Assembly: GCF_026151205.1 (NCBI RefSeq)
Contig: NC_087076.1
Coordinates: forward strand, 6,252,902-6,316,901
Direction: 5' to 3'
Source of the DNA: Bolinopsis microptera
Taxonomy: Eukaryota > Ctenophora > Tentaculata > Lobata > Bolinopsidae
Length of the DNA: 64,000 nt
Shown one piece after another: positions 16,201 through 54,876 of this stretch. How positions within the stretch are numbered: position 1 is the stretch's first letter; every line of letters begins with the position of its first letter. A program made the position numbers and the translations under genes. The notes beneath the pieces were generated by a model. That model saw only the letters and a list, made by a program, of their open reading frames with translations, made no database searches and was not told where the DNA came from.

Positions 16201-16208
16201 GTGGTAAC

Positions 16209-16991: not shown

Positions 16992-16994
16992 AAT

Positions 16995-27473: not shown

Positions 27474-27474
27474 A

Positions 27475-27484: not shown

Positions 27485-27486
27485 AT

Positions 27487-27591
27487 TGTAATAGCTCGCT
27501 TAGCTTGAACAATGGATACACATAGCTGTTACTCTAATCAGAGGCTGAAGATAATATCATTAATAATACATAACATAAATAATTCATAACA
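27487..27591 (-). repeat. 5' LTR of the gypsy element
   Basis: 105 bp, identical to 22373-22477. Confidence 0.95.
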
Positions 27592-35443: not shown

Positions 35444-38400
35444 TCATTTTGGATGTGTGGACCCTAGGGTAGACTTAATGTCAAAATTTAGATTAGAGCA
35501 TTCGAAATCTTTGTTTGTCCAATCAAGATCAGCATGGTTATGCTGGTTGACGAGCAGTGATTGCTTCATCCTAGACTTCAGGCAGGCCACACTTAGACAG
35601 TAGTCACGTATACCAAGCTTAGGCACAATTACGTTCCAAATACGAGTCGTTCTGCTATTGAAGTTGTCAGGGGGGTCTGCTTGGCTTAGTATAAGGGTGG
35701 GTTTCCTACTTGAGCAGGTGAAATTTTCATGGAGGGAAATCGGAGCACGGAATTTCATGATTTTATAGAGCTCAAGGAAACAATGGTAAGTGTACAGGTT
35801 TTGGACGGCAAGTATTCCGTGTTCCTTGAACAAAGGTTTCGTGTGCTCTTTCAAGAAAAATTTTTTGTTCAGATTTTGGTTGCCAAACGGTCGAGCACGA
35901 GCACAGGTCTTAAATTTATCTAGGTATGCCTCCCTGTCGCCAAACAGTACCCTGAGACAATATTTTTGTGCTTTGAATACAGAACTTATACGAGTTTTGG
36001 CTGCCCCACCCCAAACCGTGATACAATAGGAGAGGTGTGATTCAAATAGAGTGTAATACAACTGGCGGTGTAAGAAATCTGGGAGGGAGCAGCGTAGGCG
36101 GCAGAGAGTTGATGTTGCATGGCTGAGAGAACGCCTAAGTGATTTTATATGTTCTTCCCAGGTTAGCTTTTCATCGATGACGACTCCCAGAAACTTAGCA
36201 GATGCAACTTGTTTTATTGGAAAGTTATCAATGGTTAGAGTATATTCAGAATTATTGTCAGTCTGGGAGGACGATGCTGGTTTAAAGTGAATGAAACAGC
36301 ATTTAGACAAGTTGACATGGAGTTTGTTTGCTCGCATGTAGGAATATAAACTAGCTAAAAGAGAATTACCACGCATATATGCCTCCTTTTTAGATTTCCC
36401 AGTCACAAATATATTGGTGTCATCAGCGAAGGTGACAAATGATCCCAAACTGGAGCTGTTGGCGATATCATTAATATATAGGAGAAATAAGAGAGGTCCA
36501 AGAATCGAACCCTGAGGGACTCCAAACTGTATTTTCAAGGCGTCAGATTTCTCACCAACAACTTCAGTATATTGTGATCTATTTGTTAAGTAACTTTTTA
36601 TAAGATCATTTGCCACCCCACGTATCCCATAGCCCTGTAATTTGACAAGTAATGTACCATGATCTATTGTATCAAAAGCTTTGCTAAGGTCTATGAATAT
36701 GCCTAAGACATGATGCTTAAGTTTTAGAGATTCAGTTATAAGGTTTACTGAGTGATTAACTGCATGTGAAGTAGAGTGTGACTGCCTGAAGCCAAATTGT
36801 GTTTTAGATATTATACCCTGTGAGCTAGCAAACGAATATATTCTTGAGTAAATGATCTTTTCAAAGATTTTACCAAATATAGAGAGAGTAGAGATTGGGC
36901 GGTAGTTTTCTATCTCTTCAGGGTTTCCCTTCTTAAATACAGGAGTTATTCTACCAGTCTTTAAAACGTCGGGGAACGTGCCATTAGACATTAAGATGTT
37001 GATGTATCGACTAAGGATCGGTGTAATTACGTGAGATGATCTTTTGATTACACTAACAGGAATATCACTTGCTTTTCCATTTTCAAATCCTTTTATTATT
37101 TCCGTTATCTTATAAGGTGTACAGTCTTCTAACATAATCGATTTTTCATTAGTCTTTCCAAGGAAATCATAGAATGTTTTTATAGGGAGAATTGGTAAAC
37201 CAGAGGCCTCACTGCTACTAAGTGTTTCATTGAGCTTAGGGGCAATAGAAACAAAGTAAGAGTTGAATCCATTGGCTATGACTCTACGATTCATGATTCG
37301 TTCGTTGTTTATGATAAAGGGAGGCTTAGTTTGCTTCTTTTTCTTGCCCCTGAGCTCATTGATTATCTGCCACGTTTTTTTGTTGTTTTCTATATTTTTA
37401 TGGATTTCATTGCAGTAGTACGATCGTTTGGCGACCTTGATAATACTTTTAAGCATTCTTCGGTAGTCATTGAAGACTTTATAGAGCAGTACATTACCCT
37501 CAGGGTTTCTATTTGTTACAGTGCTTGACCAGTCTCTACAGAGTTCATGTTTTCTTTCAACTGAGACAATGATTCCATCGGTAATCCACGGGTTGAGTTT
37601 GGGAGTCCTTTTGGTAACTTTTGGTACATCAAGCTTACAGTGTTTATCAAGTGTTTCATTGAAGCAGTCCAAGAACTCATTGAAGTTTACCGAGGGAGTT
37701 AAGTCATTCACCTTCACCTCGAGTTCATTAACAAAATTAGTGAGTTTGGAACTTGAATAATCATAGTAGCGAACATGTTTAAGTTTTTCAGTACTGTTTT
37801 CGGTAGGAATTGACGTGAAGGTGAATATAAAGGCATGGTCACCAATCCTATCATTCAATACACCGGAGAGAAGTACATGATCTATCTCTGATGTGAGGAT
37901 ATTGTCAATACATGAGTTTTTACAGTTAGGACGGAAGTGGGTAGCAAGTGATATAGTAGGATACATATTGTTACGAAGTAACGTGTCCTCAAATAACTGG
38001 CTGGAGGTTTGTACATTGAGGAGGTTAGAGTTAAAATCGCCAAGAATATGGAACTTTTTACCAGCCAACTGCTTAGATATATCCTCAAGAGTTTGACAAA
38101 AGGTCTCACTACAGCCATTTGGAGGACGATAAGCAACCCCATATGTCAGTTTATCACCCGAGCTAAGAGTAATTTCAACAAATAAGCACTCAATATCTTT
38201 TGTACAGTGAGATAGATTTTCGATTACTACAGCATTCAGGCGATCAGAGACATATAAGGATACTCCTGTTCCTTTTTTCTTATCAGGGAATGGTACTTGA
38301 CAAAATGTTGTATAGGAGGGGATTTGGTATAAGCCTTGTTGGCTTGGATCGATGTTGGTCTCAGCCAATCCAATGACATCAAAATTACACGGGAGGGTCT

Positions 38401-38839
38401 TATGTTCTATTAAAAAGCTGTCAAAATTACTAGCAAACCCATCTATATTGCAAAACAGAGCGGGCAGATAAGCAGAATTTTTATTTTTCTCAGGAAAAAG
38501 TTTGCTGATTGAGTTTGCTAGTTCTTGTTTTGTGTAACGCTTACAGTCTTCAAGTATTGAAGAGAATTTAGCTATGGTGACATCTTCCTGGTTGTTTGTA
38601 TCATAGAATTTATCTGAATCATCATATCTTTGGCTGCTTGGAAATGGGCAATACCTATTTTCTATTGTACTACAGCAATCACTACACATCCATAGACCGT
38701 TTTTGCTTGTAAATTTCGCGGATCTGAAGCACTTAGTATGAACAACTTTGCTGCAATTTTCACATTCTAAGAGTGGCTGGCCAATATTAATGTATTTACT
38801 ACAGGGGTCGCACACATCTTTAATAAGTTTCATAATCAT
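35444..38839 (-). CDS. LINE A ORF2: PHD-like finger, endonuclease, RT
   Basis: 1131 residues from the ATG at 38839, without stops. Residues 10-55 form a PHD-like zinc finger: C10, C13, C26, C29, H34, C37, C52, C55. An APE-type endonuclease follows, with NIDGFASNFDSF, GLAETNIDPS, HILGDFNSNL and GDHAFIFTF, supplying the N, E, D/N and DH catalytic positions. RT motifs are VFKKGN, ENYRPIS, FIDLSKAFDTIDH, GVPQGSILGPLL and FADDTNIF. The C-terminal domain ends TLGSTHPK. The protein would nick target DNA and prime cDNA synthesis there; the finger could bind chromatin or nucleic acid. It appears fully intact. Confidence 0.93.
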   Translation of the reverse strand: MIMKLIKDVCDPCSKYINIGQPLLECENCSKVVHTKCFRSAKFTSKNGLWMCSDCCSTIENRYCPFPSSQRYDDSDKFYDTNNQEDVTIAKFSSILEDCKRYTKQELANSISKLFPEKNKNSAYLPALFCNIDGFASNFDSFLIEHKTLPCNFDVIGLAETNIDPSQQGLYQIPSYTTFCQVPFPDKKKGTGVSLYVSDRLNAVVIENLSHCTKDIECLFVEITLSSGDKLTYGVAYRPPNGCSETFCQTLEDISKQLAGKKFHILGDFNSNLLNVQTSSQLFEDTLLRNNMYPTISLATHFRPNCKNSCIDNILTSEIDHVLLSGVLNDRIGDHAFIFTFTSIPTENSTEKLKHVRYYDYSSSKLTNFVNELEVKVNDLTPSVNFNEFLDCFNETLDKHCKLDVPKVTKRTPKLNPWITDGIIVSVERKHELCRDWSSTVTNRNPEGNVLLYKVFNDYRRMLKSIIKVAKRSYYCNEIHKNIENNKKTWQIINELRGKKKKQTKPPFIINNERIMNRRVIANGFNSYFVSIAPKLNETLSSSEASGLPILPIKTFYDFLGKTNEKSIMLEDCTPYKITEIIKGFENGKASDIPVSVIKRSSHVITPILSRYINILMSNGTFPDVLKTGRITPVFKKGNPEEIENYRPISTLSIFGKIFEKIIYSRIYSFASSQGIISKTQFGFRQSHSTSHAVNHSVNLITESLKLKHHVLGIFIDLSKAFDTIDHGTLLVKLQGYGIRGVANDLIKSYLTNRSQYTEVVGEKSDALKIQFGVPQGSILGPLLFLLYINDIANSSSLGSFVTFADDTNIFVTGKSKKEAYMRGNSLLASLYSYMRANKLHVNLSKCCFIHFKPASSSQTDNNSEYTLTIDNFPIKQVASAKFLGVVIDEKLTWEEHIKSLRRSLSHATSTLCRLRCSLPDFLHRQLYYTLFESHLSYCITVWGGAAKTRISSVFKAQKYCLRVLFGDREAYLDKFKTCARARPFGNQNLNKKFFLKEHTKPLFKEHGILAVQNLYTYHCFLELYKIMKFRAPISLHENFTCSSRKPTLILSQADPPDNFNSRTTRIWNVIVPKLGIRDYCLSVACLKSRMKQSLLVNQHNHADLDWTNKDFECSNLNFDIKSTLGSTHPK

Positions 38840-38845: not shown

Positions 38846-39828
38846 CTAAGTGGGATAAACTCCCACTGGTCGGGTGGCCTTCCTTTGTCTTACTCTCTCC
38901 TGTCTCTCCCTCACATACACCCACTGTTTCAGACATCTCAAAAATTTAGCAATACCAAGCTCTCCGAGATGGATTTCATCACCATTTCTCGTGAGTTTCA
39001 TAGCAAGCAACCCTTTACCGTCTAAAAAGTGGCCAACACCAAGGTGCCATACATTCTGGTTAAAGCTAGAGTACAACATTTCATCAACCAAGCTGTTGAA
39101 TGCCATAATGTTTTTATTCATCTTAGGGAGTCTAGACGGTAAAACTGCTGTGACAAACAACTTCGCCTTAGGGTACAGTTTCTGGATCTGCTGGATTTTC
39201 AGGTGGAGAATGTCTACCAGCTGGTGTATATCACCAGGTGACTGCACATTTTCAACTCGTAGATCGTTGGTCCCACAAACTAAGATGACGTTGCTATAAC
39301 CAATGCAGAGCTTAGGGTCTATTGCACTGACCTTGTTGGCTTTAACACGTTCACCTGGGAAGGACTGTCCAAGGGTTCCAGTACCGACACCGAACTTGAT
39401 GGGCTTGGTGTTAGAGTCGCCCATGATGATGCAGCTCCGGCTAAACTGTTTGCTCACAGTTCTCAGTGTGATGGAGAACCTTCCTGTCTGCACAGAAGAC
39501 TGAGTTTCAGCAGGACCTGTTTCATCAATACCGTGACGATACCAGGCTTGTGACGATCGTGTCATCACATACACTGAGTTAGATTCTGGACTCACACTAT
39601 GAACATACTCAGTTGAGGCTTCGTTTCCGGTCTCATGGATGCACTTAAAGCACACCTTCCTGACGTCGCCTATGCTGATAGTAGCAATTTCTGAGTTAGC
39701 AATAATCTCAGACTCATCGTCAGAGTGAAAAGGGAGCTTGCTACTAGTGGTGGTATCAACTGAGGGAGGGTAGTAGTTTATTAGGATGGAGTTGGGCTTA
39801 TGGGTCAGTCTGCACTTTGATGACTTAA
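38846..39828 (-). CDS. LINE A ORF1: AlkB-like dioxygenase fused to SGNH hydrolase (5' partial)
   Basis: Numbered in the 359-residue open frame, of which roughly the first 33 residues read through foreign flank (antisense of LINE B). An AlkB-like domain follows: NYYPP at 50-54, PFHSDDE with H67, D69 and E71, SIGDVRKVCF, VYVMTRSSQAWYRHGID with H131, and GRFSITLR with R149 and R155 (R-x5-R). These are the Fe(II)- and 2-oxoglutarate-binding residues of AlkB. It runs directly into an SGNH hydrolase: IIMGDSN (S171), VCGTND (N220) and DEIH (D316, H319). Stop to ORF2 start is 6 nt (TAG tttatc ATG). An esterase in CR1/L2 ORF1 is known; the dioxygenase is the unusual part. Domain calls are from motifs, not a search. 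Confidence 0.8.
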
Positions 39829-41212
39829 AATAGAACGTATAGATGAAAAGAAGAAGGAAAAGAAAACGAAGAAGGAAACTACTGTTCAAAATGTCTCGTA
39901 TAGCCCACATACACTCGTAGAGCACATTCCAGTTCTCCCTGGAATGGATGAAAATCTATTCCAGAAAATCACAGAAGAATTAGATTCAATGAATCTTGAA
40001 GGCAAATCTAATAAAGTCCACACCCTATGGCTAAGCCCTTCATCAGAAGACTACTGCTTTGGTAACATAGTCAACAAGCCACATCCCATCAACAACTTCC
40101 CTAGCATCTTTAAGTTGATGGGACTTATTAATGACCTCCCCTCCACCACCAACAACATGGATGCTTGCCTTGTTACTAGGTACGACACTCAGCAAGCTAA
40201 GTTAAGCCTCCATAAAGACGATGAAGACCTAATAATATCACAGTCCAGCTCCATTTGCACTTACTCAATAGGGGCTCCGCGGTCACTTGAGTTTGTGCTC
40301 GATACAACCCAAGTAGAACAACGCACAACTAGGGCCTCTAGGTCAAGGCCAGCCCAAGAGTTGATTAACGCAGACTTCACCCTTCCTGCCACCAATGGCA
40401 CACTGAACATCATGAAGCCTGGTGCACAGCAAGTCATGAGGCACAGCATTGCCCCAGGAGTTGCACCTTCTGACAATGAAATTTGTTGGAGGTATAGTCT
40501 CTCCTTCAGAAAGTTAACCACACCTTCCTCTTCCCCTTCATCTCCTATTCTTCCCTCTCCTACATCCGACAGTCCTAATAAGGTACCCCCAAAAGCTCCC
40601 ATCACAGACTCTCAAAAACACCAGAAGTCTATCATCCTCATTGCTGGTGACTCCTTTGCTGCTCGATTGGACGCTGATCGCCTCAGTAGAGGTAAAGAAA
40701 CTGTCACCAACATAGCTAAGGGTGGGCTTAAGATCTCAGCTATACAGAAATCTATTGAGGCCTTTCATACAAAGAACCCTCTTGTGCAGGTAAAGAAACT
40801 GTTCTTAAGCTTCGGTGCCAACGACATCCGGTACTGTACCCAGGGTGTCAATCATCTCAAGACCCCTGTGAGTGACCTTATGAAGACAGCAAAAAAACTT
40901 TATCCAAATGCACGTGTTTTTGTACAAGCTATTCCACCAGTCCACCCCAACGGACAAGATAAAATCCCTGGTAATGTTTGTGCTATGAATAATTTGATCT
41001 TTGATCGCTGCTCTAGGCATAAACTGTTTTACCTTGATGTTTTTTGGGCTTTCTTAGACCGCTATGGAAACAGAAACGAGAGATTATTTCCTAAATGTGA
41101 CAAAAGGGGCTTTTATGATATTCATCCCAGCCCCAAGGCTGGGATGCCAGTGTTGGCAAAGTTCTATCTCAGAATCATACACTCAAAGTGGTTTAATCCA
41201 TTGGGATACTGA
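39824..41212 (+). CDS. LINE B ORF1: AlkB-like dioxygenase fused to SGNH hydrolase
   Basis: The frame is open from 39824; the first ATG is 39944 (422 residues), and a Lys-rich segment upstream (EKKKEKKTKK) is in frame, so the start may be lost. Numbered from 39944, the AlkB domain has VTRYDTQQAKLSLHKDDED with H90, D92 and E94, SIGAPRSLEF, LNIMKPGAQQVMRHSI with H167, and WRYSLSFRK with R183 and R189. A Ser/Pro linker (195-225) leads to the SGNH domain: LIAGDSFAAR (S237), SFGANDIRY (N293), YDIHPS (D392, H394). The last motif is D-x-H rather than the usual D-x2-H. ORF1 is followed by ~190 nt and ORF2. No PHD finger is visible. Likely cytoplasmic or RNP-bound, as LINE ORF1 proteins are. Confidence 0.8.
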   Translation, partial: LKIERIDEKKKEKKTKKETTVQNVSYSPHTLVEHIPVLPGMDENLFQKITEELDSMNLEGKSNKVHTLWLSPSSEDYCFGNIVNKPHPINNFPSIFKLMGLINDLPSTTNNMDACLVTRYDTQQAKLSLHKDDEDLIISQSSSICTYSIGAPRSLEFVLDTTQVEQRTTRASRSRPAQELINADFTLPATNGTLNIMKPGAQQVMRHSIAPGVAPSDNEICWRYSLSFRKLTTPSSSPSSPILPSPTSDSPNKVPPKAPITDSQKHQKSIILIAGDSFAARLDADRLSRGKETVTNIAKGGLKISAIQKSIEAFHTKNPLVQVKKLFLSFGANDIRYCTQGVNHLKTPVSDLMKTAKKLYPNARVFVQAIPPVHPNGQDKIPGNVCAMNNLIFDRCSRHKLFYLDVFWAFLDRYGNRNERLFPKCDKRGFYDIHPSPKAGMPVLAKFYLRIIHSKWFNPLGY

Positions 41213-41270
41213 TGTGGTAATTCAATTCAATATTTAAATTTTTCATTGTCTGCATCAGTATCCTATTGGA
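41197..41270 (+). promoter_or_regulatory. Stem-loop spanning the LINE B ORF1 stop codon
   Basis: tccattgggatactgatg (41197-41214) pairs with catcagtatcctattgga (41253-41270): 18 positions with one mismatch and one G-U, and a 38-nt loop. The ORF1 TGA (41210-41212) is inside the stem. A role in stop readthrough or reinitiation for ORF2 is possible but only inferred. Confidence 0.6.
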
Positions 41271-41379
41271 TCTGATCATTTGGATGTTATTTATATGTAT
41301 TCAAACGAAGTGATAGCATAATGTATGTTACTTCATATTATAGCACAATACCTAACAAAACACAACGGCGAGACACAAT

Positions 41380-43875
41380 TCTGTTAATAATATACTTTAA
41401 AGTTCCATGGGAATATCGGCTCAACAACACCGTGTTGCAACTGGTATGTTTTCTAGGTATGTTATCATCAGTAAAAGTAATAGAGGTTACGGGGAAAATT
41501 TGTTGTCCTGTCTTCTGTCTCGTCATATGTTATGTGCTCTATTGGGTATATTTTATTTTTATGTTATTTTGTATATATTTTCTTTGACTATCGATGCTAA
41601 TATACTCCCTGGTGCTCCCCTACAACCTAAAATACACTCTGTACCATGTTTGAGGTCATCCATAAATCTTTACTTTATGGTAATATTTTGTACCATTTTT
41701 CTCAGACACTTTAAACTTGTGTATAGGGGGGAGGGGGGCATTGGGACAGCCTTAGCTGCAATTTCTGTAAAATTGCTATCTACCACAAAAACCGAACTGT
41801 CACCTACCATGTCACCGAAACAGACTGTTAAGTTACTTTTCGGTATAACCAGCAGCTGGCTTGGGGTCATGTCTAGGTGTGGTCTGGTTTTTCTATCTCT
41901 CCTTAATATTTCCCTGATAGTAATTTGTAATTGTTCCTTACTGAACCCTGGACCAAATTTATCCGTTGTTTACAATAATGTCCATGGTTTCCTAAATACA
42001 CGCGATTTAGCATCAGGAACACCACCACTAAATATGACCAAGATACATGAATTCCATGGTTATATCTACAAACATAAGCCTCACATCATTATTCTAAACG
42101 AGACATGGCTGAAAAATTCCATTCTCAGTAATGAGGTGCTCCCTGACAAATACAAAGTATTTAGGCTTGACCGATCCTTAAGATCGCATCCAGTGGATGC
42201 AACCCAGCCCAAGAAATTCAGAAAAAACGGTGGTGGTGTTCTGATTGCCCATAGAACAGACATTGATATCTCGAGTCTAAAGTTCTCTAAAGTTAGTGTT
42301 CAAGCTGAATTATTATCCATCATAATTAAGACTCAGTGTGGAAGAAACTTTTGTATATCAACATTTTATAGAGTAGGAACGCTTGGCTTAGATAATTTTG
42401 AATCTTTCAAGAAACATTTTGTTACTTTAGCATCTGCCAGAAAATTGCAAAGGCACATTCTGGTAGGTGACTTTAATTTGGCTTCGATTTCCTGGCCAGA
42501 TGGTCAGTCATCTTGCCAGCTACATTCTAGCTTTGTAAATTTTCTCACTGATGACCTCGGACATACACAACTTATTAGCTCCCCTACTCACAAGTCAGGC
42601 AACACCTTAGATCTTGTGTTCACTAACATTCAAAACCTTATTAAGAATGTTAAAGTTTTAGATCAAAACGAAATGTGTATGTCCGACCACTTTTGTATCA
42701 CATTTGACATTGATATTAAGACCAAGTATATTAAGCAGCCTAAAAGAAAGATCTTTAATTATAGTAAAGGTAATTTTAGGGGCCTGAATTCTGAGTTATT
42801 TAGCATCGATTGGGATAGTATATTTGAGTGTAATGATCCTTATCTTGCCTGGAGTCGATTCAGAGGAGTTCTCGGTGCAGCCTGTGACCGATGGATCCCT
42901 AAAAAGACCATTAAGTCTCAGTTCCAGCCCCCATGGTATGACTCCGAATGTGATCGTCTCCTACGAAATAAGGAGAAATGGAGAATAAGGCATAAGGGGA
43001 GCAACTCTGAGTCTCATAAACAAAAGTTTCGTGCATTTCGCACAAAATTTAAAAATTTGATGGACGAAAGAATGAGACTCAGTGTTGAGGATGACTCCGA
43101 TGATGCTCTTATCTCCAAGAAATTCTGGACCTACGTTAAATCTAAATCAAAGTCAACCAGGATCCCTGAAACTGTCAAATATCATAATCGCTTTCGAAAC
43201 AATCCATCTGATCAAGCTGCCCTTTTTAACGAATATTTTTATGAGCAGTTTTCTCAAGAGAGCGATTATGGCATTGACATAGATTTTCGTGATGATTGTT
43301 TTTCAAGTCTTGTGTTTAGTAGAGAAGATGTTCTGTTGATTCTTAAAAAGTTAAATCCTAACAAGGCCCCTGGCCCTGATGGGATTCATGGGAGAGTCCT
43401 CAAAAACTGTGCCCAAAGCCTTGCATACCCACTTAGTGTTTTATTTAACCTGTTTTTCTCGAGCGGATGCATACCCCCTGATTGGAAGCTGGCACTTGTA
43501 GTACCAGTGCACAAAAAGGGCGATAAGTCTTCGGTTGAGAACTACAGGCCTATCTCGTTAACATCTCTTGTAATGAAAGTCTTTGAAAGGTGCATAAAGA
43601 CTGCATTATACGCTGCATGTTCTGATCTGTTGGATGACCGACAACACGGTTTTGTTAATGAACGTTCATGCACAACCCAAATGATACCTTTCACGGACAA
43701 TCTTGCACTTGCATTGAATAACAGGTCCAGGACTGATATAATATATTTTGATTTTGCGAAAGCTTTTGATAGCGTTTCGCATGACCTCATTTTAAGTAAA
43801 TTAAAGAATATTTTTAATGTCGATGGACTAATGCTTAAATTTATTAAGTCCTATCTTGAGGGGCGACAACAACAG
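41380..43875 (+). CDS. LINE B ORF2, 5' part: endonuclease and start of RT
   Basis: Open frame (earliest ATG 41407) with several hydrophobic stretches at the N-terminus, ending NCSLLNPGPNLSVVYNNV. That NPGP recalls the 2A-like motif found before the endonuclease in some LINE ORF2s, although the preceding D-V-E is missing. Endonuclease motifs: YNNVHGFLN, ILNETWLKNS, HILVGDFNLASISW and MSDHFCITF. The RT start: NPNKAPGPDGIHGRVL, HKKGDKSSVENYRPISL and IIYFDFAKAFDSVSHD (catalytic D). Element sequence stops after QQQ at 43875; the next 25 codons are from the insertion. The remaining RT is at 51452. Interrupted, so not functional as it stands. Confidence 0.85.
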
Positions 43876-43913
43876 GAAAGAAAAATTTTTTTTAGGAAAG
43901 AAAAATTTTTATT
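43874..43913 (-). repeat. Tail-like 20-bp direct repeat at insertion edge
   Basis: aggaaagaaaaattttt occurs at 43874 and 43894. On the minus strand it reads as a two-unit 3' tail, as CR1-type LINEs have, at the exact edge of the insertion in LINE B. It probably marks the 3' end of the minus-strand insertion. Confidence 0.5.
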
Positions 43914-45690
43914 TACCACAAATAATCAATACATAATGTTATATTCATAAATAAATTCAAATTTCAATTTCAAACACATATACAGTACGCCGCGCACACA
44001 GCCACAATTTAAAATTGTTCAGAAATTCGTAGGTCAGCTGTAGGCGCCGCGCACAGGATCTATTTAATTGTTAACTTACAATTACATGTCACATTTCTTA
44101 ATTACTAGAGCCAAAATTTCAGAAGCAAAATAATTTAAAAGATATTTCTGTCGTTCACGCAGTACAGGCCGTGAGCACTGCGATCTAATTAATATAATAA
44201 TGGAGAGATTCCAAAAAACCGCGCGCTCGTTATTTATTGTGATTAAATTGAGTGCGCGCCACTGTGAACAGCAGTACCGCTCAAGCATGAATTAGTACTG
44301 AGCGGTACGCAGTTCTGCGTGAGGCGTAGACATTTGTAGCACACGTTTCATTCAACTAATCCATTAATCCATGTGACATGTACAATGTAATTATATTAAA
44401 GCAAAAAGAATATTAATTTTAGTAATAATTGACGTAAACATATGTGTTTAAATAACATCTATAATCTAGCGAGTTACTAATACCGTTCGCGTTTGTTTGT
44501 ATTCTTGATTATATATCTTTACACTAGCCTATATTATGATGGAGATATACATTATATAATTGCTCCAATATTCAACACTGCTAAACAACAAATACCTACT
44601 CGCCCATCGATGAAGCAGTCGCCAAAACAAAGCTCAAAGTTAATATATCTTCGTACTTCGTTTTGGAAACTGTAGAATTCCAATAAATAATCGTGTATTC
44701 GATGGGCAAGCACTCGCCACTTGAGGCCGAGACAAACGGCACCAGCTCCGCCCCGCAACCGTGAAGTAAGGCGGGGCGGTGGTGTGCGCCGTTTATACGG
44801 CCCACAGCACGAGACATTTTGAGCTTCAAGACTTAAGACTATAAAAGTCCCGAATTAAACGTAGCGACTTACCATCGTCAGCCGTCAAAATTTAGAATTT
44901 GTATGTTATAAACTCCACACCTGCTATCAGTCTAACATGTAATTTAGTTTGTTATTGGCTAAATTTTCAACTCGATTAAGCGATGCAGACGGATGAACTA
45001 GGCTTCTCCTCCGTCAAAAACACAATGAGAGGGGATTGTGGAAGGACACGAACACTATTCGTTAACTCGTACCCCGGGTACCCCCTAGAACTGTGTCCCA
45101 TCAGAGAGAGCCCATCACCCGTCAGATCGAAAACAGCGTTTTAGTTTTGATATATGCTGTACCAATTACAATAAATGGTAAGTCAAGGCTGACGTTGGTA
45201 GCAAAGTATAAAGTGACACGTCACAACAAAATAACCACTACACACTACACACACTATACGCTATAACTATTGTACACAGTACACAGTATAACTAAAATAT
45301 AAAATATAAACAAGTTACAAGAGACAAAAGAGTTTACAGAAGAGTTTTACATCGGCTCAGCACCACCAGGACATTGGCTATACACGTGGGTCAATTAGTT
45401 TGATTTGGTATGGCTCGACCGGGAAAGTGGTCGAAATTAGTGCTCTTAATGAGTCATCACTGTCGTCTGAATATTAGAGCGGGAACTTCCCAAGTTTCGG
45501 CCGACAACGCGACGCGCACAGCATGGGCGCGCAATGCTATGCGCGGTCTCATATTACTGTGTCATTCGGCGGTTGCGCTCAGAGTTACTGGGAATGAGTT
45601 GTATGTTGTTTACCTAAATTCAAGCATGGTATTCATAGATAAGCTTGTCAGTCAGTAAGTGCTTAAGTGGGAATAACAGGCAAATGAATA
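43914..45690. other. Insertion DNA with no recognised gene
   Basis: Between the tail-like repeat and the ORF2 stop of LINE C. CpG-containing patches (43985-44065, 44160-44300, 45500-45560) alternate with AT-rich DNA. It could be a long 3' UTR of LINE C or a second inserted element. None of the short open frames shows family features. Confidence 0.4.
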
Positions 45691-45701
45691 TCACTTCATA
45701 A

Positions 45702-48158
45702 TCAGAATTCAGTGAAATTTCTGTCGCACCACTCAGTTCCATACCGGTTTTGAGCTCTTAGAAGTGACTGTTTAAGTAAATTCTTGACAGATCCGCATGT
45801 GGAGGTGAAATTTAACGGGCCAACTTTACGGAATTCGTTCCACAGCCATGCAGATTTATAAATAAATTGATTAGTTGGAGAGGGTGTAATGAACAGATTA
45901 TCTTTCCTATTTGATATGTTGAATAAGTAGTATAACGAAATTGGTACTCGTGACTTAATGATCTTAAAAAGTTCCATTAAACAACGGTATCGGTACAGGT
46001 TCTCTGTAACAAGTAATTCATGTTTTGTGAATAGAGGCTTAGTGGACTCTTTAACATAGAATTCAGATCCTAGACGTTGAGAATTAATTGGTCTTGCTCT
46101 AGCACATGTCTTGAATTTGTCTACATAAGCTTCATAGTCTCCAAATAGAATCCTGATACACTTCTTTTGAGTAATAAATAGTGGTTTTAACTGATTATTG
46201 GGAATACCTCCCCAGACAGAAATAGCATAACCTAGGTGTGATTCAAAGAGAGAATGATATATTTGTTTATATAGTGATTCTGGTAAGCATTTCTTAATAC
46301 GGTAGATACGTCCACAAGCACTTCTTAGTTTCTTGTTGAGGGATGATATATGTGGTTTCCAGCTCAATTTATCATCCATGATTACTCCGAGAAACTTTGT
46401 CTGACTTACACGTTTAATTATTTTGTTATTAATGGACAAGTTTTGGCTATCTATATCGGCATCTAATTCGTTATTATTACGTTTAGAGGGAGAAAAATAC
46501 ATGTAACAACACTTCTTTACATTAATGTGCAGTAGGTTAACTCCCATATATTTGTTTACGGCCTGTAGTGCTTCATTAGCCAATTCATATGCTTTATTTC
46601 TCGAATCGGCAGCGACAAATATATTAGTATCGTCTGCAAATAAGACAAATTTACCCTTTTTAGTTATATTGCATATGTCATTGATGTACAGTAGGAAAAG
46701 TAGAGGTCCTAATACACTACCCTGAGGGACCCCGAATTCAACCGGTAATTCATCAGATTTGGTATCCAAAACGTTTACAAATTGTTTCCTATTAGACAAA
46801 TAACTAGAGATAAGATTCAGAGCATTTCCTCTTATGCCATAGTTGTTTAATTTTGTAGTTAGTTTACAGTGGTCTAGAGTGTCAAAGGCTTTTGAGAGAT
46901 CGATAAAGACCCCTAGGACATGTTGCTTTTTACTAATTAACGATTCTATATGTTCTACAGAGTAGTTCAGTGCATGGCTGGTGGAGTGTCCTTTTCTAAA
47001 GCCGAACTGGTTTTCATGTATTATACCCTTGGAAGTAAGGAAACTATAGAGCCGCTTATATATTAACTTTTCTAGAATTTTCCCGAATACAGGTAGAGTT
47101 GATACTGGTCTATAGTTTTCTAAAAGCTGTTCATCTTCTTTTTTGTAAATGGGGCTGATTCTCCCAGTTTTTAATTCATCGGGAAAGTGGCCTTCTTGCA
47201 TGCATTTATTAAAGTATCTAGCTAAGTACGGTGCAGTAATTTGACACGACTTCTTGATCACATGAATAGGTATGTCACTAGATTTCCCGTTTTTTAGTTC
47301 GTTTATGATCTCTTTAATCTCAATACAGTCACAATCACAAAGAAAAATACTGGACGTAACTGATGTGGGCAGGTAATCAGTAAATGACGGCAGGGAATTT
47401 ATTCTTAAGAAGTCACCAGAGTATGCTTCGTTCAAGTTAGCTGCAATAGAGGCAAAGTATTTATTGAACTCATTTGCAATTACACGCCGATTAATCACAC
47501 GCTCGTTATTTATCACAAAGTTAGGTTTAATCTCACGTCTCTTCTTACCACGCAGTTCATTAATTATCTGCCAAGTTTTCTTACTATCTCCAGCGCATTC
47601 TGTAATCTTAACACCATGATACTTACGTTTTGCAGAATTAATAAGGTGGTTTAATAACTTCCGGTGTGCCTTAAATTCTTCATGACGTGTTACTTTATTT
47701 GTACAATTAAAACAAAGGGTAAGACAGTCTGCATGGTTGGCTGAAGAGGCGTTGAGGCATTTCTTCTTAACTGCCTTTTTCCACAGGTCATAAAGCTCAT
47801 GTTTTCTATTTATAGAGGCAATCAGGCCAGATGTAATCCATGGATTATTCTTAGCAGTACGTTTAGAACACTTAGGCTGGCTTAGTTTACATGCACTGTC
47901 TAGTTGATGATTAAATACAGTGAAAAAATTACTGAAGTCTTCTGGTGGATCACTAGTTAATTCATTGTCTAGTACTTCCACAAATTTGTCCACATTTTTT
48001 GCACAGTAGTCATAGTACTGGAAATAGTTTTGTTCATGAACCTCAGTACTGACTAGGGGTGAGTTGAATATATGGAATACAGCATGATGGTGACTGATGC
48101 AGGTACTAATTGTTCCAGAGCAGATAGAGTTTTCTATGTTGTTGGTGAGTGTTGTCAA
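45702..48158 (-). CDS. LINE C ORF2, second part: end of endonuclease, RT
   Basis: Continues the ORF2 protein after a frameshift near 48150. It begins within the endonuclease end, where A has GDHAFIFTF and C reads SHHHAVFHIF, so the catalytic aspartate of the usual D-H pair seems replaced. The linker carries WIINEL-type motifs shared with A (TWQIINELRGKKRR). RT motifs: KTGRISPIYKK, ENYRPVSTL, FIDLSKAFDTLDH, GVPQGSVLGPLLF and FADDTNIFVA; C-terminal FGDYEAYVDKFKTCARARP. Apart from the frameshift no damage is seen. Confidence 0.88.
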   Translation of the reverse strand: MTTLTNNIENSICSGTISTCISHHHAVFHIFNSPLVSTEVHEQNYFQYYDYCAKNVDKFVEVLDNELTSDPPEDFSNFFTVFNHQLDSACKLSQPKCSKRTAKNNPWITSGLIASINRKHELYDLWKKAVKKKCLNASSANHADCLTLCFNCTNKVTRHEEFKAHRKLLNHLINSAKRKYHGVKITECAGDSKKTWQIINELRGKKRREIKPNFVINNERVINRRVIANEFNKYFASIAANLNEAYSGDFLRINSLPSFTDYLPTSVTSSIFLCDCDCIEIKEIINELKNGKSSDIPIHVIKKSCQITAPYLARYFNKCMQEGHFPDELKTGRISPIYKKEDEQLLENYRPVSTLPVFGKILEKLIYKRLYSFLTSKGIIHENQFGFRKGHSTSHALNYSVEHIESLISKKQHVLGVFIDLSKAFDTLDHCKLTTKLNNYGIRGNALNLISSYLSNRKQFVNVLDTKSDELPVEFGVPQGSVLGPLLFLLYINDICNITKKGKFVLFADDTNIFVAADSRNKAYELANEALQAVNKYMGVNLLHINVKKCCYMYFSPSKRNNNELDADIDSQNLSINNKIIKRVSQTKFLGVIMDDKLSWKPHISSLNKKLRSACGRIYRIKKCLPESLYKQIYHSLFESHLGYAISVWGGIPNNQLKPLFITQKKCIRILFGDYEAYVDKFKTCARARPINSQRLGSEFYVKESTKPLFTKHELLVTENLYRYRCLMELFKIIKSRVPISLYYLFNISNRKDNLFITPSPTNQFIYKSAWLWNEFRKVGPLNFTSTCGSVKNLLKQSLLRAQNRYGTEWCDRNFTEF

Positions 48159-49044
48159 TACACGATTCGTTACATCCTGGTTTATGATGCGTGGAAGTAG
48201 AAATAAGTGGTGATAAACCTAGACCTAGAATAAGGTTTTCAAAGTCTTGAACAAGTTTACTGTTTTCATCATGGAGATTAATGTTAAAGTCACCTAGTAT
48301 GTAAGCATTCTTTTTTGGGCAAGATTCAATAATTTTTCTAAGTTCATTTAGTGCCTCTGAGGAGTCCCCACTAGGAGGACGGTACAGTACTCCTACATGT
48401 ACAGGTTCATCATGTTGAATAGTAATAAATAGGGTTTCAAGATTTTTGGTTACCCATGATAATTCTTCGTTTACAACTCCATTAAGTTCGTCCTTTAAGT
48501 ACAATGCTACTCCACTTCCCTTCGCTTTATTGATATGTTTATCCTGATAGAAATAATTGTACCCCTCAAGATGGTAAACAGTGCTTTCCTCTATTCCAAT
48601 ATTGGTTTCAGCAAGTCCAATAATTTTAAATTTTTCGGCTAATCGGTTTAGTTCCATGCTAAAGGCATCAAAATTTGTTTTATTGCCATCTATGTTCTGG
48701 AAAATCATGGAGCAGTTGCTTGCAAAACAAGGTTTGATATGTGTGTTAAAGTCCTTAATTGTATAGGATCTACAGTTTTCCAAAGCATCGGACATCTTTT
48801 GGATACATGGGTCACAGTCATTAACTTCAGGATCGGTCATTACTTTAAAAGGATTGTATTTTTTAGATATGGAATGTTTACACTCGTTGCAGTAAAAGTT
48901 TTCATTGATAACTTGCGCTTTGGAGGGATTAAAACATTTGGCATGGAGAATACTATTGCAGTTAAAACATTCAAAGTGGGGAAGCCCTAATCCAATATTC
49001 TTCAGACAGTGACTACAAATTTCCTTTCGAACACGATTAACCAT
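48106..49044 (-). CDS. LINE C ORF2, first part: PHD-like finger and endonuclease
   Basis: 312 residues from the ATG at 49044, 5 nt after the ORF1 stop (TAA caggt ATG). The N-terminal finger is C-S-H-C, then ECFNC, LHAKC and FYCNEC (C2-C2-H-C-C2), like that of LINE A ORF2. Endonuclease motifs: FQNIDGNKTNFDAF, IGLAETNIGIEE, AYILGDFNINLHD and CNESCIDN. The frame runs out soon after CIDN, and the protein continues in another frame from 48158. One inserted or lost base near 48150 explains this. A sequencing error cannot be excluded. Confidence 0.85.
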   Translation of the reverse strand: MVNRVRKEICSHCLKNIGLGLPHFECFNCNSILHAKCFNPSKAQVINENFYCNECKHSISKKYNPFKVMTDPEVNDCDPCIQKMSDALENCRSYTIKDFNTHIKPCFASNCSMIFQNIDGNKTNFDAFSMELNRLAEKFKIIGLAETNIGIEESTVYHLEGYNYFYQDKHINKAKGSGVALYLKDELNGVVNEELSWVTKNLETLFITIQHDEPVHVGVLYRPPSGDSSEALNELRKIIESCPKKNAYILGDFNINLHDENSKLVQDFENLILGLGLSPLISTSTHHKPGCNESCIDNTHQQHRKLYLLWNN

Positions 49045-49049
49045 ACCTG

Positions 49050-51236
49050 TTAACCGTTCCGTCCCCTCCGCTGCGGTGCAGGCGGGTCACTAGCCACGTT
49101 GCTGTATAGCCGTCCATTGACTTTGCCGATGTGTTTTCTTCTGTCTTCTCCGCCATTTAACCTAATAAATACAGATTGTTTAATGAGTCCAGCAAGGACT
49201 CTTGCCCCTAACTTGTTGAGATGAAGTGTATCAAGTCGACCATGTCTGTCGAATTGTTTCGACAGTTCGTCCGCAAGACCATAGTTGCAGGCAAACTTTT
49301 CGAAACCCTTAACACATACGACATCCTTACATGTAGGGAGCAGGTCGAAATGAATCAGTCTATTAAATGCATTAACTTTTACATTCAGCTTTAAGTCCTT
49401 AGTAGGCAGCAGTTTACAAACAAAAACAGCTCTAGTGCTGGGGCTAAGATTCTTAATTTGTTTAATTTTCAGCTTGAGTTTATTATAACAATCAGCAACA
49501 TCATTCTCACAACTAATATCAGGCTGTCTCACGTCATTGATCCCACAGTGGAGCACCACATTGGCGTAACCCATGCAGGACACAGGGTTGATATCTTCAA
49601 TTCTGGGAGCCCAGAACTTTTGACCTGGCATGAGCTCGCCAAAGGTACCCCTCTTGTCAGACCCAAAACGCAAGAAGCCTGTGTTTGAATCACCATGTAA
49701 GCTTGTGCAATTTTTATTTGTCCAGCTAACAGCACGAAAGGTCAGCGAATACCTAATACCATCTGATATTGAGCCACGCTCAATCATATGGCTGTAAACT
49801 TCTTGTGATCTACGGCTCATTATGTACAGTGAGCGATCATGACATTCAAGAGAGGATTCAGTTCTAGAGTCACATTCAGTGAACTTGATGTTGCAGATCT
49901 GGCCGAGAGACAAGGTAAGTATTGATGATTCTGGATGGATGGTCACTTCACGGTCTGAATGGTTAGGCAGGTGACTATCAGAGCCATCATATCTGTTGAT
50001 GAGACATGAATTGATAACCGGGGCCGTCAGGTGGGGCTGATCCGGGTAGCTCTTGTTAAAAAGTTCAGTTTGTACTTTATTCATTTCATCAAATAATGGT
50101 TTGAGTTCCTCAGGAATTGGTGGCACATTTTCTGAAGATTTAGATCCCATGTAGTGGTAGGGGGTGCCAAATGAAGTGACGGAGTGACCGTTCTCTTGTT
50201 TGAAAGAACATGACTGAAGAAAGGCAATAATTTTCTCAGATTCAGTAGCCAGAATAAAATCTGGCCTGGTTTCAGTTACTGGCACCTGATCATGTGGTAA
50301 GTGAGGGGTAGGTTGTTCAGGTTGTAGGGGAGCCTGCACTGGAGGAGAGGGGTACTGGGCTACAGGTGGTGCTTTAGATTGAGGAGATGCTTTAGAATCC
50401 TGTATTTGACTGCTTAAGTTGTTAAGTTGGGTGGAATGCTCATTCAGTTCTAGTGAGACTCTCTCAAGTAGCTCATGAGTGGCAGTGCAAGCAGGTGTTT
50501 CAGATGCTGCAGTTTGATGCGATTGAAGCTGTGCAAGTTGCTGGTTCAGCTGCTCGATGCTGTTGGCTAGAGGGTCTGTGGCAGAGCTGGATGATGAGGA
50601 CAGTGCTGCTTCTAACTTTTTCATTTGAGCCTGATGGGACTTCAACCCGTCTTCTTTAATCAGGAGATGTTGTAGATGGAGATCAAAAGTCTGAAGACGT
50701 TCCATGTTGCTGTTGAGACTGGCTATTTGCTCGCAGAGTTTCTCACTGTCTACCGAGGCAAGCGATGCTGAGATTAGGCCTATGTTATTAAGATTATCTG
50801 CAGCAGCTGAGGCTTCAAATTCACTGTTAGCCTGTCGTAAGACTGTTGTGTTTCTGCAGGAGAAGCATGTGTCTGATCTCTTATTCCTGGCAGTGCTTAC
50901 TGGGGCAACATAGCAAAAGGGACATAGGTAGTCAACCATGGCGTTGATGGCCTGCCTTGAGATCCCCCGCATACTAAGACAATCAACATGCCACTGCTGC
51001 TTACAACGCGAACAGTCGATCAAATAGACTTTGCCGCCAGACGAGCCGTTACACGGGCACTTATCAAGGTCCCAGTGTTTCGTCTTGGCAGCACTTTCAG
51101 CTACTCTGCTCACCTTAATTAAGGGCGAGCTAGTATCGCTTTCTGACTTAGCTTTATTCCTCTTGTTGAGGTGAGGACTGAGTGTATCCATGGAACCTCC
51201 TCTCCCACTTCTTGGTATACTACTATTACCAGACAT
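49050..51236 (-). CDS. LINE C ORF1: PHD finger, coiled coil, AlkB-like dioxygenase, SGNH hydrolase
   Basis: 728 residues, no stops, ATG at 51236. Residues 60-108 form a PHD finger (C60, C62, C75, C78, H83, C86, C105, C108), followed by CFSC at 124-127. Residues ~160-280 are Leu/Gln-rich with coiled-coil spacing, then a Pro-rich linker (285-325). The AlkB-like domain spans ~355-505: NRYDGSDSHLPNHSDRE with N414, Y416, H426, D428 and E430; LTLSLGQICNIKF; YIMSRRSQEVYSH with H483; RYSLTFR with R495 and R501. The SGNH domain spans ~508-690: HGDSN (S517), HCGIND (N567), DTLH (D669, H672). The combination suggests an RNP protein with oligomerising, chromatin- or RNA-binding and two enzymatic parts. 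Predicted dioxygenase substrates are methylated bases in RNA or DNA, by family analogy only. Confidence 0.85.
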   Translation of the reverse strand: MSGNSSIPRSGRGGSMDTLSPHLNKRNKAKSESDTSSPLIKVSRVAESAAKTKHWDLDKCPCNGSSGGKVYLIDCSRCKQQWHVDCLSMRGISRQAINAMVDYLCPFCYVAPVSTARNKRSDTCFSCRNTTVLRQANSEFEASAAADNLNNIGLISASLASVDSEKLCEQIASLNSNMERLQTFDLHLQHLLIKEDGLKSHQAQMKKLEAALSSSSSSATDPLANSIEQLNQQLAQLQSHQTAASETPACTATHELLERVSLELNEHSTQLNNLSSQIQDSKASPQSKAPPVAQYPSPPVQAPLQPEQPTPHLPHDQVPVTETRPDFILATESEKIIAFLQSCSFKQENGHSVTSFGTPYHYMGSKSSENVPPIPEELKPLFDEMNKVQTELFNKSYPDQPHLTAPVINSCLINRYDGSDSHLPNHSDREVTIHPESSILTLSLGQICNIKFTECDSRTESSLECHDRSLYIMSRRSQEVYSHMIERGSISDGIRYSLTFRAVSWTNKNCTSLHGDSNTGFLRFGSDKRGTFGELMPGQKFWAPRIEDINPVSCMGYANVVLHCGINDVRQPDISCENDVADCYNKLKLKIKQIKNLSPSTRAVFVCKLLPTKDLKLNVKVNAFNRLIHFDLLPTCKDVVCVKGFEKFACNYGLADELSKQFDRHGRLDTLHLNKLGARVLAGLIKQSVFIRLNGGEDRRKHIGKVNGRLYSNVASDPPAPQRRGRNG

Positions 51237-51451
51237 TCACAAAAGGAAAAAAGGAGTTTGTATCTTCTAAAAAACTTAATCACCAACCGGAAATGTTCAG
51301 ACTTTTGGGTCTGACTCCCTTTATAGATTTGTGTAGAGTGGAAGGAGAAGCAGGACTTCTCGGGTCTGTGCTGTGTCAGTTATCGTTTAACAGTTTCAGT
51401 TATCGTTTGACATTATCGTTTAACATTACACATACCTCAAATTATTTGTTA

Positions 51452-52486
51452 GTGATAGGAGGCCAAACGTCTTCTTCTCTACCAGTTCGGTCTGGTGTCC
51501 CTCAAGGTTCTATACTTGGCCCTTTATTGTTTGTAATATTTATAAATGACATGTTCTCCTGTGTCTCTGAAGGCACCAATATCGCCCTTTATGCAGATGA
51601 CACTAAAATTTGGAGGGAGATCCTTGGTTACCCTGACCATCACATAATCCAAAATGACATCAACAGATTATATGATTGGTCAGTGAGAAATCGAATGAAG
51701 TTCCACCCACAAAAGTGCAAAGCCCTCTCTGTGTCCCTGCAAAGAAACGTGCTGGATAACTTGCCATTCAATACCTTCTTTTATAAACTTTCTGGAAGTG
51801 ATATTGACTTTGTGCCCTCTCAGTCAGATTTAGGAGTCGCAATAAACTCCAGGTTTAATTGGGGTGCACAATGTAAAGCGCTTGTTTCCAAAGCTACCTC
51901 TAGACTTGGACTACTTAAGAGAACATGTCATTTCACTACTGATAAAAGGCAGAAAAGATCGTTCTATTTAGCGTTAATTAGGTCTATATTTGAACATTGT
52001 TCTGTCATATGGTCCCCTCAATCTGCAACTCATCTTCAACAGTTTGTTGCTATCCAAAAGAGGGCTATTAAATGGATCAATGGTGAACCTTACTCCAGTT
52101 ATAATGACGATAAACTTGCTACAGAGCAAAAGAAACTAAATATTCTCCCTGTTAAACAGAAGTTTATTTATAACGATCTTATGACCTTCTATAAAATAGT
52201 GAATAGCATAATTCCAGTTTCGCTCCCTACATATATAGTCCTATGCCGTCCAGAGGGCACCCGATACACTAGGCACAATGCTCAAATAATTGATATGTCG
52301 GATACTTCAACTTACATGAGTACCACTGTGCCCTGCTCGGATGCCTTCCGAAATAGCTTTTTTCATAGATCTATGCTGAAATGGAATAGTCTACCAGTAT
52401 GTATCCGGCAGTCAGAGCGGATTTCTACTTTTAAGGCCAAACTGATCAAGTACCTCTGGGCTGCCGATACAGTCTGGCCAGATTAG
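51452..52486 (+). CDS. LINE B ORF2, 3' part: RT active site and C-terminus
   Basis: Element sequence resumes at VIGGQTSSS (51452); the ~90 upstream codons in the same frame are antisense to the leader of LINE C and do not belong. RT motifs: RSGVPQGSILGPLLFVIFIN and IALYADDTKIW (catalytic DD). The C-terminal domain has FEHCSVIWSPQSATHLQQ, IQKRAIKWI and SLPVCIRQSERISTFKAKL, ending DTVWPD. It completes the polymerase begun at 43740. The final ~120 bp to 52610 would be the short 3' UTR. Confidence 0.85.
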   Translation: MIGGQTSSSLPVRSGVPQGSILGPLLFVIFINDMFSCVSEGTNIALYADDTKIWREILGYPDHHIIQNDINRLYDWSVRNRMKFHPQKCKALSVSLQRNVLDNLPFNTFFYKLSGSDIDFVPSQSDLGVAINSRFNWGAQCKALVSKATSRLGLLKRTCHFTTDKRQKRSFYLALIRSIFEHCSVIWSPQSATHLQQFVAIQKRAIKWINGEPYSSYNDDKLATEQKKLNILPVKQKFIYNDLMTFYKIVNSIIPVSLPTYIVLCRPEGTRYTRHNAQIIDMSDTSTYMSTTVPCSDAFRNSFFHRSMLKWNSLPVCIRQSERISTFKAKLIKYLWAADTVWPD

Positions 52487-52626
52487 CTCATCAGTCTTAT
52501 GAGTCTCAGAAATTTGTTTGTGTTGGTTACAATTCTGTCCGTCCAATTTCCTATCTGCTTGTCCTTTCTTTTTTCTTATCAGTTGTGACGGAATTGTAAT
52601 GAACAAAATCCTTATAATTATTTATA

Positions 52627-53484
52627 GTAGAGGCTCTTACGGGCATTGTCTGCTCGATACGTTAGGGACCCCAGATACACCTTACTAGACGTATTTTTGA
52701 GCGTAGAATCGATTGAAAGTGGTTTCAAGATGATTGGACTGATTGTTCTGGGGTAAAATCGCAAAAAACCGATTTTTGGGCCAAAAATAGGCCAAAATAA
52801 CCATGTTTTTTGATATTTTGAGCAAGTTAATTTTGTTGGCATGTCGGCAAAACTTGCATAAAGATAGCTAAAAGATAGCCGCACAAGATTGTATAAAAAT
52901 AAAACAAATCCCTCTATTTGTTCTGAGGTAAAAATCCAAAAAAGTGGTAAAAATTTTGACTTTTTTGCTTGAAGTTTGAATAATTTTTTGCAGTTGTATT
53001 AAATCAACCCAAAAATAGTCACATCGTGTTTGCCTAAATTTTTCCTTTCCGAGAAGTACCCACTTCATATACTTTATCGAAGTTTGAATATTTTCACTCC
53101 GCAAGCGTTTTTGCCAAATTTTCGACGCGCACTACGCGCAAAAGCATTTAGTTGTTATCAATTGGCACCCGCGCGTTCATCATAAATTTCAAACAGCTAT
53201 AACTCAGCGAGATTATGTCCGTTCTAGCTCATATTTTCACACTAAATAGAAAATAATGTGATCTTATTGCTGACAAAATATGAATATAATTACTCTATTT
53301 GCCTTAGAGTAATAGACTGTCAAAGTTTAAAACGCGCATTGGTATAGCACGTGACTAATAAGGCCAAATTTATACTTCTTAACATATTATCGATCCTTAG
53401 ACATCATATTATTGTGTCCAATTAGCGGTTAGGTCTCTAAACTCGTAGCAGAAAACACGTCTTTTTGCCCGTAAGAGCCTCTAC
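52627..53484. mobile_element. 858-bp MITE, 19-bp inverted ends, TA duplication
   Basis: gtagaggctcttacgggca (52627-52645) is matched exactly inverted at 53466-53484, flanked by TA on each side (52625-52626, 53485-53486). No transposase frame. The TA target suggests a Tc1/mariner-type helper. It landed in or just after the 3' UTR of LINE B. Confidence 0.8.
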
Positions 53485-53754: not shown

Positions 53755-54876
53755 TCAAATAAAAAAAAATGTAACTGCGTCTATGGCTGAGGCAAGGGGT
53801 GCTGGGATTGTGGGGGATAGGGGTGGGTCTGAATCACCAGTATAAGAGTAGTCTTCCCCAAACTTGAGGACCTGTCTTCCATTCTTCGGGATGAACTTAT
53901 TACTAGCTTGGCTCTCCAGGAGAAACTCTGTAACTTCTTTGAGGATCTCAGCACTTAGCACATCGACCAGGTAATCACACACTGGAGGTTCTGTGCATTT
54001 AGGGAGGGGGATTTCTGTAGCAGGTGGTGCTTCAGATGGACTTCTGGACTGCTGAAATTCATGAATCTCTTGACTCAGCTTCTTCAGTCTTGTCTCCAGG
54101 GATACAATCTCCACAGTAGGCATACTGTTACCAACAGCATTAGAAATAGCATCTGATATAGCCTGTATGTTCTGGCTGTAGTCTACAGAGCTCTTTAGGT
54201 TGTTGTCCATCTTGGCTGACATGCTGGAGCCTGGTCTGGGGAATGATGTATCGAAACACCATGGACATAGCCATTCTGAGAGAATAATATTCAGAGAAGC
54301 TTCAAGAGGTGTATCGTGCTGAATGTTGTTAGCACCCTTGAGATTGCAACAGGAAGCATGCCAGTGCTGAAAACATCTGGTACACTTGAACTTCCATTCC
54401 TTACCATCTGATGTTGATCGGCAAGGACAATCACTCTTTGAAGCCCGTTGTTTTACTGTAGGTTTATCCTGGATTTCAAGTTCTTCAGCAGACTCTTCAG
54501 CACGGGAGAATGGAGGAAAGGACTTGTACAGAGGGCTCATTGGACTGCTGGGGCTCTCTCTGAGGTTCGATGATTCTAAAGCTGATATCAGGTTTGGGCT
54601 GATCTTTTCAATAACCAGATTACCTGGAGGTTTAAGAACAGATGTCTCTGGTTGTTCTTGGGGTGACTTTGATGGGCGTTTACCCAGCACAGCTTTCTGG
54701 GCCATTGCGCTAGGGCTGTTCCTGCGCAGGGCTTTGTTGTCTGCTAGAGGTTTCTTCTTTTGGGAGGTAGCTCCTCTGCCGGATGGTGACATGCTAGCTC
54801 TGGGTCCTGGGTTGGTAGGAGGAGGAGTGTGTCTAGGGGAACGCCTTTGGGTACTAGCACTTGAGGTAGTAGCCAT
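53755..54876 (-). pseudogene. LINE ORF1 fragment D: PHD finger, coiled coil, start of AlkB domain
   Basis: 373 codons on the minus strand from the ATG at 54876. A basic, Ser/Pro-rich N-terminus is followed by a PHD finger: DCPCRS, KCTRCFQHWHASCCNL, EWLCPWC. Next is a helical stretch (IVSLETRLKKLSQEIHEFQQ) and LKFGEDYSYTGDSDPPLSP, which lines up with the N-terminal strand of the AlkB domain in LINE C (SFGTPYHYMGSKS). Element sequence stops before the H-x-D motif, at a T9 run (minus strand). It is thus a 3'-lacking ORF1 piece, odd for LINEs, which normally lose their 5' side. The 5' leader probably continues to about 55200. Confidence 0.75.

Follow-up and report, generated by a model that had tools for sequence, protein, structure and literature searches.

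We propose that the 728-residue open reading frame on the minus strand at 49050..51236 of the window (the whole 64,000-nucleotide stretch of Bolinopsis microptera DNA analyzed here) constitutes ORF1 of a LINE with recent activity, one that joins a PHD/coiled-coil/esterase design to an ALKBH2/ALKBH3-class dioxygenase that may clear RT-blocking methyls from the nucleic acid of the element, and we judge the chances of this proposal as a whole to be about even. An earlier note on this DNA had arrived at a similar interpretation, which is partly supported: the domains, the fold, the conservation of the ligands, the purifying selection, the occurrence in two distant LINE types and the many open copies all stand, and what we infer is that the domain is catalytically active, which class of substrate it has and that it acts on nucleic acid of the element itself.

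The single 728-residue frame with AlkB and SGNH domains was confirmed on the minus strand (a plus-strand reading, with 38 stops in frame 1, was rejected). Its PHD-type zinc finger with an extra CxxC spans residues 55-130 (50847..51074, minus strand, as are all parts of the frame), and the ligands of the finger are conserved in 67-72 of the 85 aligned proteins of this kind (here termed type 1), although the match to Pfam PHD (E 5.4e-4) is below cut-off. A helical, presumed coiled-coil, region with linker covers residues 131-325 (50262..50846), with helices at 125-281 in the AlphaFold model of the ORF1 protein, and is followed by the AlkB-type Fe(II)/2-oxoglutarate (2OG) dioxygenase domain at residues 326-505 (49722..50261) and the SGNH/GDSL esterase domain at residues 506-690 (49167..49721). 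The SGNH domain of the window protein also falls under the Pfam cut-off, and the ORF1 profiles find the esterase of zebrafish ZfL2-1 (4c1b), which identifies an SGNH domain within ORF1. In the part of the structural study used here, the zebrafish LINE ORF1 esterase has catalytic D279, H282, and S143 and oxyanion residues N195 and G165, and S517, G538, N567, D669, and H672 agree with it in order and in DxxH spacing (PMC3905857). The S, N, D, and H that the note had picked out recur as S517, N567, D669, and H672 in all 85 type-1 proteins.

The element to which this frame belongs occupies ∼7.6 kb on the minus strand (43875..51451, 5′ end at 51451 and 3′ end near 43875). Only 5 nt separate the end of ORF1 from the start of ORF2, which in the window copy is split into two minus-strand frames, the first (48106..49044) with an N-terminal PHD/C1-like finger and an APE-type endonuclease, neither of which reaches its Pfam cut-offs in this piece, and the second (45702..48158) with the reverse transcriptase (RVT_1, E 1.3e-38). 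Such a finger, with matches to Pfam C1_1 and PHD that stay under the cut-offs, precedes the endonuclease in 48109-49044 and likewise in the minus-strand ORF2 at 35447-38839, and hence the LINE has a finger in both ORFs. Three copies elsewhere (L049, L050, and L051) have a common 5′ start that corresponds to window position 51451. L049 is 98.8% identical to the window copy over 7632 bp and L051 97.0% identical over 7630 bp, both with open ORF1 (728 and 730 residues, respectively) and open ORF2 (1114 residues in each), and L050 has an open ORF1 and a fragmented ORF2. The pairing of ORF1 with ORF2 was seen in six copies besides that of the window, and in copies of other subfamilies the two proteins have 720 and 1122 (L052), 693 and 1127 (L053), 672 and 1166 (L054), and 735 and 1025 (L056) residues; in L055 (2300-6760) AlkB, SGNH, endonuclease and reverse transcriptase lie in a single open frame of 1486 residues. 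An ORF2 with APE-type endonuclease and reverse transcriptase, as befits a LINE, is evident in L049 (RVT_1, E 2.3e-38; Exo_endo_phos_2, E 7.5e-8) and likewise in L081, L054, and L055, and L052 has RVT_1 with a weaker Exo_endo_phos match (E 3.7e-4). No Pfam family for integrase, protease or RNase H was found in ORF1 or ORF2 (at E ≤ 1 for the window proteins and E ≤ 0.05 for the copies), and the element thus differs from the Ty3/gypsy type with its gag-pol, integrase and RNase H.

The type-1 element interrupts a second AlkB-containing LINE, here termed type 2, on the plus strand. The first piece of the latter (39826..43874) contains its ORF1 (39944-41212; AlkB and SGNH, with no PHD match) and the start of ORF2 (41407-43950), and the alignment to L081 assigns 51450..52625 to the remainder of the interrupted ORF2, including the reverse transcriptase. 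L081 is an uninterrupted type-2 copy with a single ORF2 frame of 1170 residues, and it matches the window at 41106-43874 and then at 51450-52625 with two query bases in between, an empty site, which places the insertion of the type-1 element (∼43875-51451) within the ORF2 of the type-2 LINE. The flanks inspected at the insertion show a 2-base difference and no target-site duplication. The earlier view of the frame as a LINE ORF1 is borne out by the dispersed copies, the ORF1-ORF2 pairs, the defined 5′ ends and the empty target site.

Further AlkB-LINE sequences and other repeats surround these two elements. The type-2 LINE has a second interruption at 52626-53486, as the L081 match to 51450-52625 resumes at 53487-53768. 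On the minus strand, an ORF1 remnant of another type-1-like LINE (38846..39925; end of AlkB and SGNH, Pfam 2OG-FeII_Oxy_2 E 7.5e-16, also found by tblastn) lies directly upstream of its ORF2, which encodes a finger, endonuclease and reverse transcriptase in 1131 residues (35444..38839), and the end of this ORF2 was evidently duplicated very recently, as seen in a 2264-bp inverted repeat of 99.96% identity (9814-12077 versus 34938-37201). A truncated ORF1 of a further copy (53755..54876, minus strand) retains the finger, the helical region and the start of AlkB according to tblastn matches to residues 16-181 and 257-385 of P0001; in Pfam this segment gives a weak finger and no AlkB match. What looks by inspection like a Ty1/copia element (3746-8735) has retroelement ORFs at 4522-6780 and 6799-8322 between 168-bp repeats (3746-3913 and 8568-8735) that are 99.4% identical, and a gypsy-like element (22373-27593), with protease, reverse transcriptase, RNase H and integrase in a 1549-residue frame (22872-27521), is bounded by identical 107-bp repeats (22373-22479 and 27487-27593). 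There is also a repeat array at 13834-19315 in two inverted halves (13834-16202 versus 17005-19315), more copies of which lie at 21312-21523.

The AlkB assignment rests on fold, ligands and affinity. Structure prediction for the AlkB region, a check that the note had suggested, returned a double-stranded beta-helix in agreement with known structures, with ALKBH2 and ALKBH3, including DNA-bound forms, among the top structural matches at 21-24% identity. The iron ligands (HxD…H) and the RxxxxxR and NxY motifs for 2OG are present, and the signature residues listed in the note are complete, as N414, H426, D428, H483, and R501 occur in 85/85 type-1 proteins and R495 in 84/85, with Tyr (70), Phe (14) or Leu (1) at position 416. 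A profile built from eight of the AlkB domains finds ALKBH2 and ALKBH3 first (E 4e-13), ahead of ALKBH8, of a DNA N6-methyladenine demethylase and of AlkB and ALKBH6, and the window protein alone finds ALKBH2 by sequence at E 0.0086. FTO and ALKBH5 do not appear in the profile match list at E ≤ 0.1, an absence that excludes neither; both also fit the same fold, such that fold and motif leave the substrate unfixed. The HxDxE motif of human ALKBH2 (HRDDE) and ALKBH3 (HSDDE) is present in both LINE types, its Glu being found in 85/85 type-1 (E430) and 67/70 type-2 proteins (E94, with Asp in the other 3), and in only 5/40 of the closest stand-alone AlkBs found. Hence, by closest sequence and fold and by the acidic residue two past the metal-binding Asp, the domain is of the ALKBH2/ALKBH3 type; in such enzymes this residue touches the methylated base and may bear on the substrate class.

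Both enzymatic domains are strongly conserved. There are 33 invariant columns over the 85 type-1 proteins (the window protein and 84 of 120 listed matches, with 131 found, fragments and near-duplicates excluded), of which 20 are in AlkB, 13 in SGNH and none elsewhere, although no invariant column is possible in the N-terminal part because some rows do not include it. Among 70 type-2 proteins (the window protein and 69 of 96 matches, with the same exclusions), D92, H167, R189, S237, N293, and H394 occur in all 70, H90 in 69 (Tyr in one), R183 in 67 (Cys in three) and D392 in 60. The AlkB ligands are intact in 41/41 type-1 and 17/17 type-2 frames of the genome, and 12/17 type-2 frames retain the Asp of SGNH. 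Values of dN/dS are pairwise Nei-Gojobori estimates, with a dS above 1 being near saturation, and eight type-1 pairs were picked by hand for them. For AlkB, three type-1 subfamily pairs gave dN/dS values of 0.15 (0.08-0.27), 0.16 (0.08-0.25), and 0.06 (0.02-0.10; 95% bootstrap intervals), two near-repeats of reported pairs gave 0.149 and 0.158, and the other type-1 pairs listed (40 of 104, dS 0.08-1.2) did not exceed 0.19; three near-identical pairs gave 0.28, 0, and 0.07 with two, one and ten changes, respectively. Values between type-2 subfamilies were 0.17-0.19, and those of close type-2 pairs, with few changes, were higher (0.24-0.39). The SGNH domain (0.08-0.25 for the same three subfamily pairs) is conserved equally strongly, and AlkB is thus not singled out by selection. 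This conservation and the low dN/dS of both domains suggest that the element needs, or needed until recently, both the AlkB and the SGNH enzymes.

Relatives of both ORF1 types are numerous. In the 264,652,675-base genome (232 contigs) we found at least 70 matches to the type-1 ORF1, 64 without internal stop (61 of 1278 candidates scored), and at least 105 to the type-2 ORF1 (99 of 639 candidates scored), counts that are lower bounds and include fragments, with one copy possibly giving two rows. The protein database holds 131 type-1 relatives (120 listed) and 96 type-2 relatives; among the type-1 homologues listed the organism is Mnemiopsis leidyi wherever one is named, the best named match being 71% identical over the part searched. 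The sole named type-2 relative, P0179, is a type-2 LINE ORF1 labelled as a Gammaproteobacteria MAG and is probably eukaryotic contamination. Outside LINEs, the closest relatives found of the type-1 AlkB are a diverse family of stand-alone AlkBs (P0242-P0332), mostly of ∼200 residues. With the ORF1 profile, no relative was confirmed among 127 pattern matches in IMG/VR viral contigs or among 68 in prokaryote contigs, nor was the stand-alone family confirmed among 10 pattern matches in viral contigs, and phage records yielded distant AlkBs only (10 records, all <60% identity).

The domains of ORF1 seem not to share one history. Synonymous divergence varies several-fold across them within single pairs, with dS for PHD, helical region, AlkB and SGNH of 0.05, 0.37, 1.07, and 0.68 (L016-L019) and 0.12, 0.22, 0.47, and 0.17 (L034-L036), and, for the window protein versus L012, saturated, 1.60, 0.35, and 0.24; the simplest reading is that modules were swapped between subfamilies, through recombination or template switching. 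The profiles of types 1 and 2 are collinear through AlkB and SGNH (hhalign E 3.6e-33, 26% identity). In a tree of 83 AlkB domains (20 from the type-1 and 21 from the type-2 alignment), type 1 lies beside the stand-alone AlkBs (represented in their alignment by 40 of 120 listed matches, with 124 found, fragments and near-duplicates excluded) and type 2 beside ALKBH2/3 fragments, with an unstarred support of 83, and when three long or fragmentary rows are left out the two types group together (support 65). This grouping and the collinear profiles favor, but do not prove, a single AlkB-SGNH fusion shared by both types. We therefore lean, with somewhat better than even confidence, toward the AlkB-SGNH didomain being an old ORF1 core of two deeply separated ctenophore LINE types, maintained in an active state by selection and possibly passed between elements as a module, which would give these elements their own nucleic-acid demethylase for RNA repair or for erasure of a host mark.

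How might such a domain serve the element? The ORF1 protein most likely would multimerize via its helical region and package the element RNA, and the AlkB domain, with Fe(II) and 2OG, would strip Watson-Crick-blocking base methyls of the m1A/m3C class from the element RNA, or from single-stranded nucleic acid of the ribonucleoprotein, yielding a demethylated template through which target-primed reverse transcription could read. ALKBH3 itself acts on m1A and m3C, in both RNA and single-stranded DNA. That the domain instead works on DNA, clearing alkyl or methyl groups from bases of the single-stranded target, of nascent cDNA or of silenced copies, seems improbable given that the ORF1 protein is usually regarded as an RNA-packaging protein, even if DNA-bound ALKBH2 and ALKBH3 are among the top structural matches and the PHD-type finger could bring the protein to chromatin. 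Passages of two studies of mouse ES cells offer a distant parallel for DNA, with ALKBH1, a host protein that is not encoded by the element, linked to the loss of DNA N6-methyladenine from young L1 copies (PMC6015446, PMC4982230).

A possible, if rather unlikely, role is that of an active eraser of a host mark, m6A or another regulatory methyl, on element or host RNA, by which silencing or decay would be escaped. The sequence affinity for ALKBH2/3, the lack of ALKBH5 and FTO among matches at E ≤ 0.1 and the HxDxE Glu in 85/85 and 67/70 proteins all argue against it, whereas a precedent exists in the AlkB of an orchid Ty3/gypsy element with m6A activity in vitro, as given in part of that report (PMC9289625). 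The inactive H448A mutant described there kept its RNA binding (PMC9289625), and AlkB folds do bind single-stranded nucleic acid, as would suit a module that binds RNA or has a structural part and whose catalysis can be spared; such a role is nevertheless very doubtful in view of Fe and 2OG ligands that vary little or not at all among aligned proteins with 30-65% identity to P0001, and of dN/dS values of 0.06-0.19 between subfamilies. A host AlkB gene, or a chance fusion beside a reverse transcriptase with no part in a LINE, has only the broken ORF2 of the window copy in its favor, and it was rejected as having a negligible probability, considering the genome matches to two ORF1 types (at least 70 and 105), the six further ORF1-ORF2 pairs, the common 5′ ends and the empty site.

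The proposed ORF1 demethylase has parallels in several known systems. AlkB domains occur in plant RNA viruses, which likewise are selfish replicons with an RNA phase, and PHD and esterase domains in CR1-like elements were reportedly described by Kapitonov and Jurka in 2003. With the type IV ORF1 of CR1/L2 elements (esterase, sometimes zinc finger) the present LINE shares a probable zinc finger, a helical region that is presumed to be a coiled coil, an SGNH domain with its S, N, D, and H and an ORF2 with endonuclease and reverse transcriptase, and it differs in having an AlkB dioxygenase between the helical region and the esterase. Relative to the ALKBH2/ALKBH3 branch of the AlkB family, this predicted enzyme is distinct in being part of a retrotransposon ORF1 and fused to SGNH. 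In the sections of the 2014 ORF1 survey drawn on here, CR1-like elements have long been recognized to carry PHD and esterase domains, esterase ORF1s are reported only from two vertebrate subgroups and there is no mention of oxygenase, 2OG, Mnemiopsis or ctenophores (PMC4120745). The Phalaenopsis Ty3/gypsy element is also a retroelement that encodes an AlkB dioxygenase, but it is a plant LTR element with a separate ALKBH5-like ORF, the in vitro m6A activity of which is lost in H448A according to the portion of the report cited, whereas the AlkB-LINEs are non-LTR elements of two types with an ALKBH2/3-like domain fused into ORF1 (PMC9289625). Among titles and the starts of abstracts in the open-access literature no description of a LINE ORF1 with AlkB was found, and a catalogue entry in Repbase or Dfam, which lie outside this scope, is possible.

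If the domain is active, this would be, to our knowledge, the first LINE to encode a nucleic-acid demethylase, and an enzymatic role would be added to those of the ORF1 protein. Two questions would then become accessible to test: whether methylated bases in LINE RNA hold back reverse transcription, and whether animal hosts put marks on retroelement RNA that elements evolve to remove; if the didomain is indeed an old core of both LINE types, it would represent an element-encoded eraser in animals.
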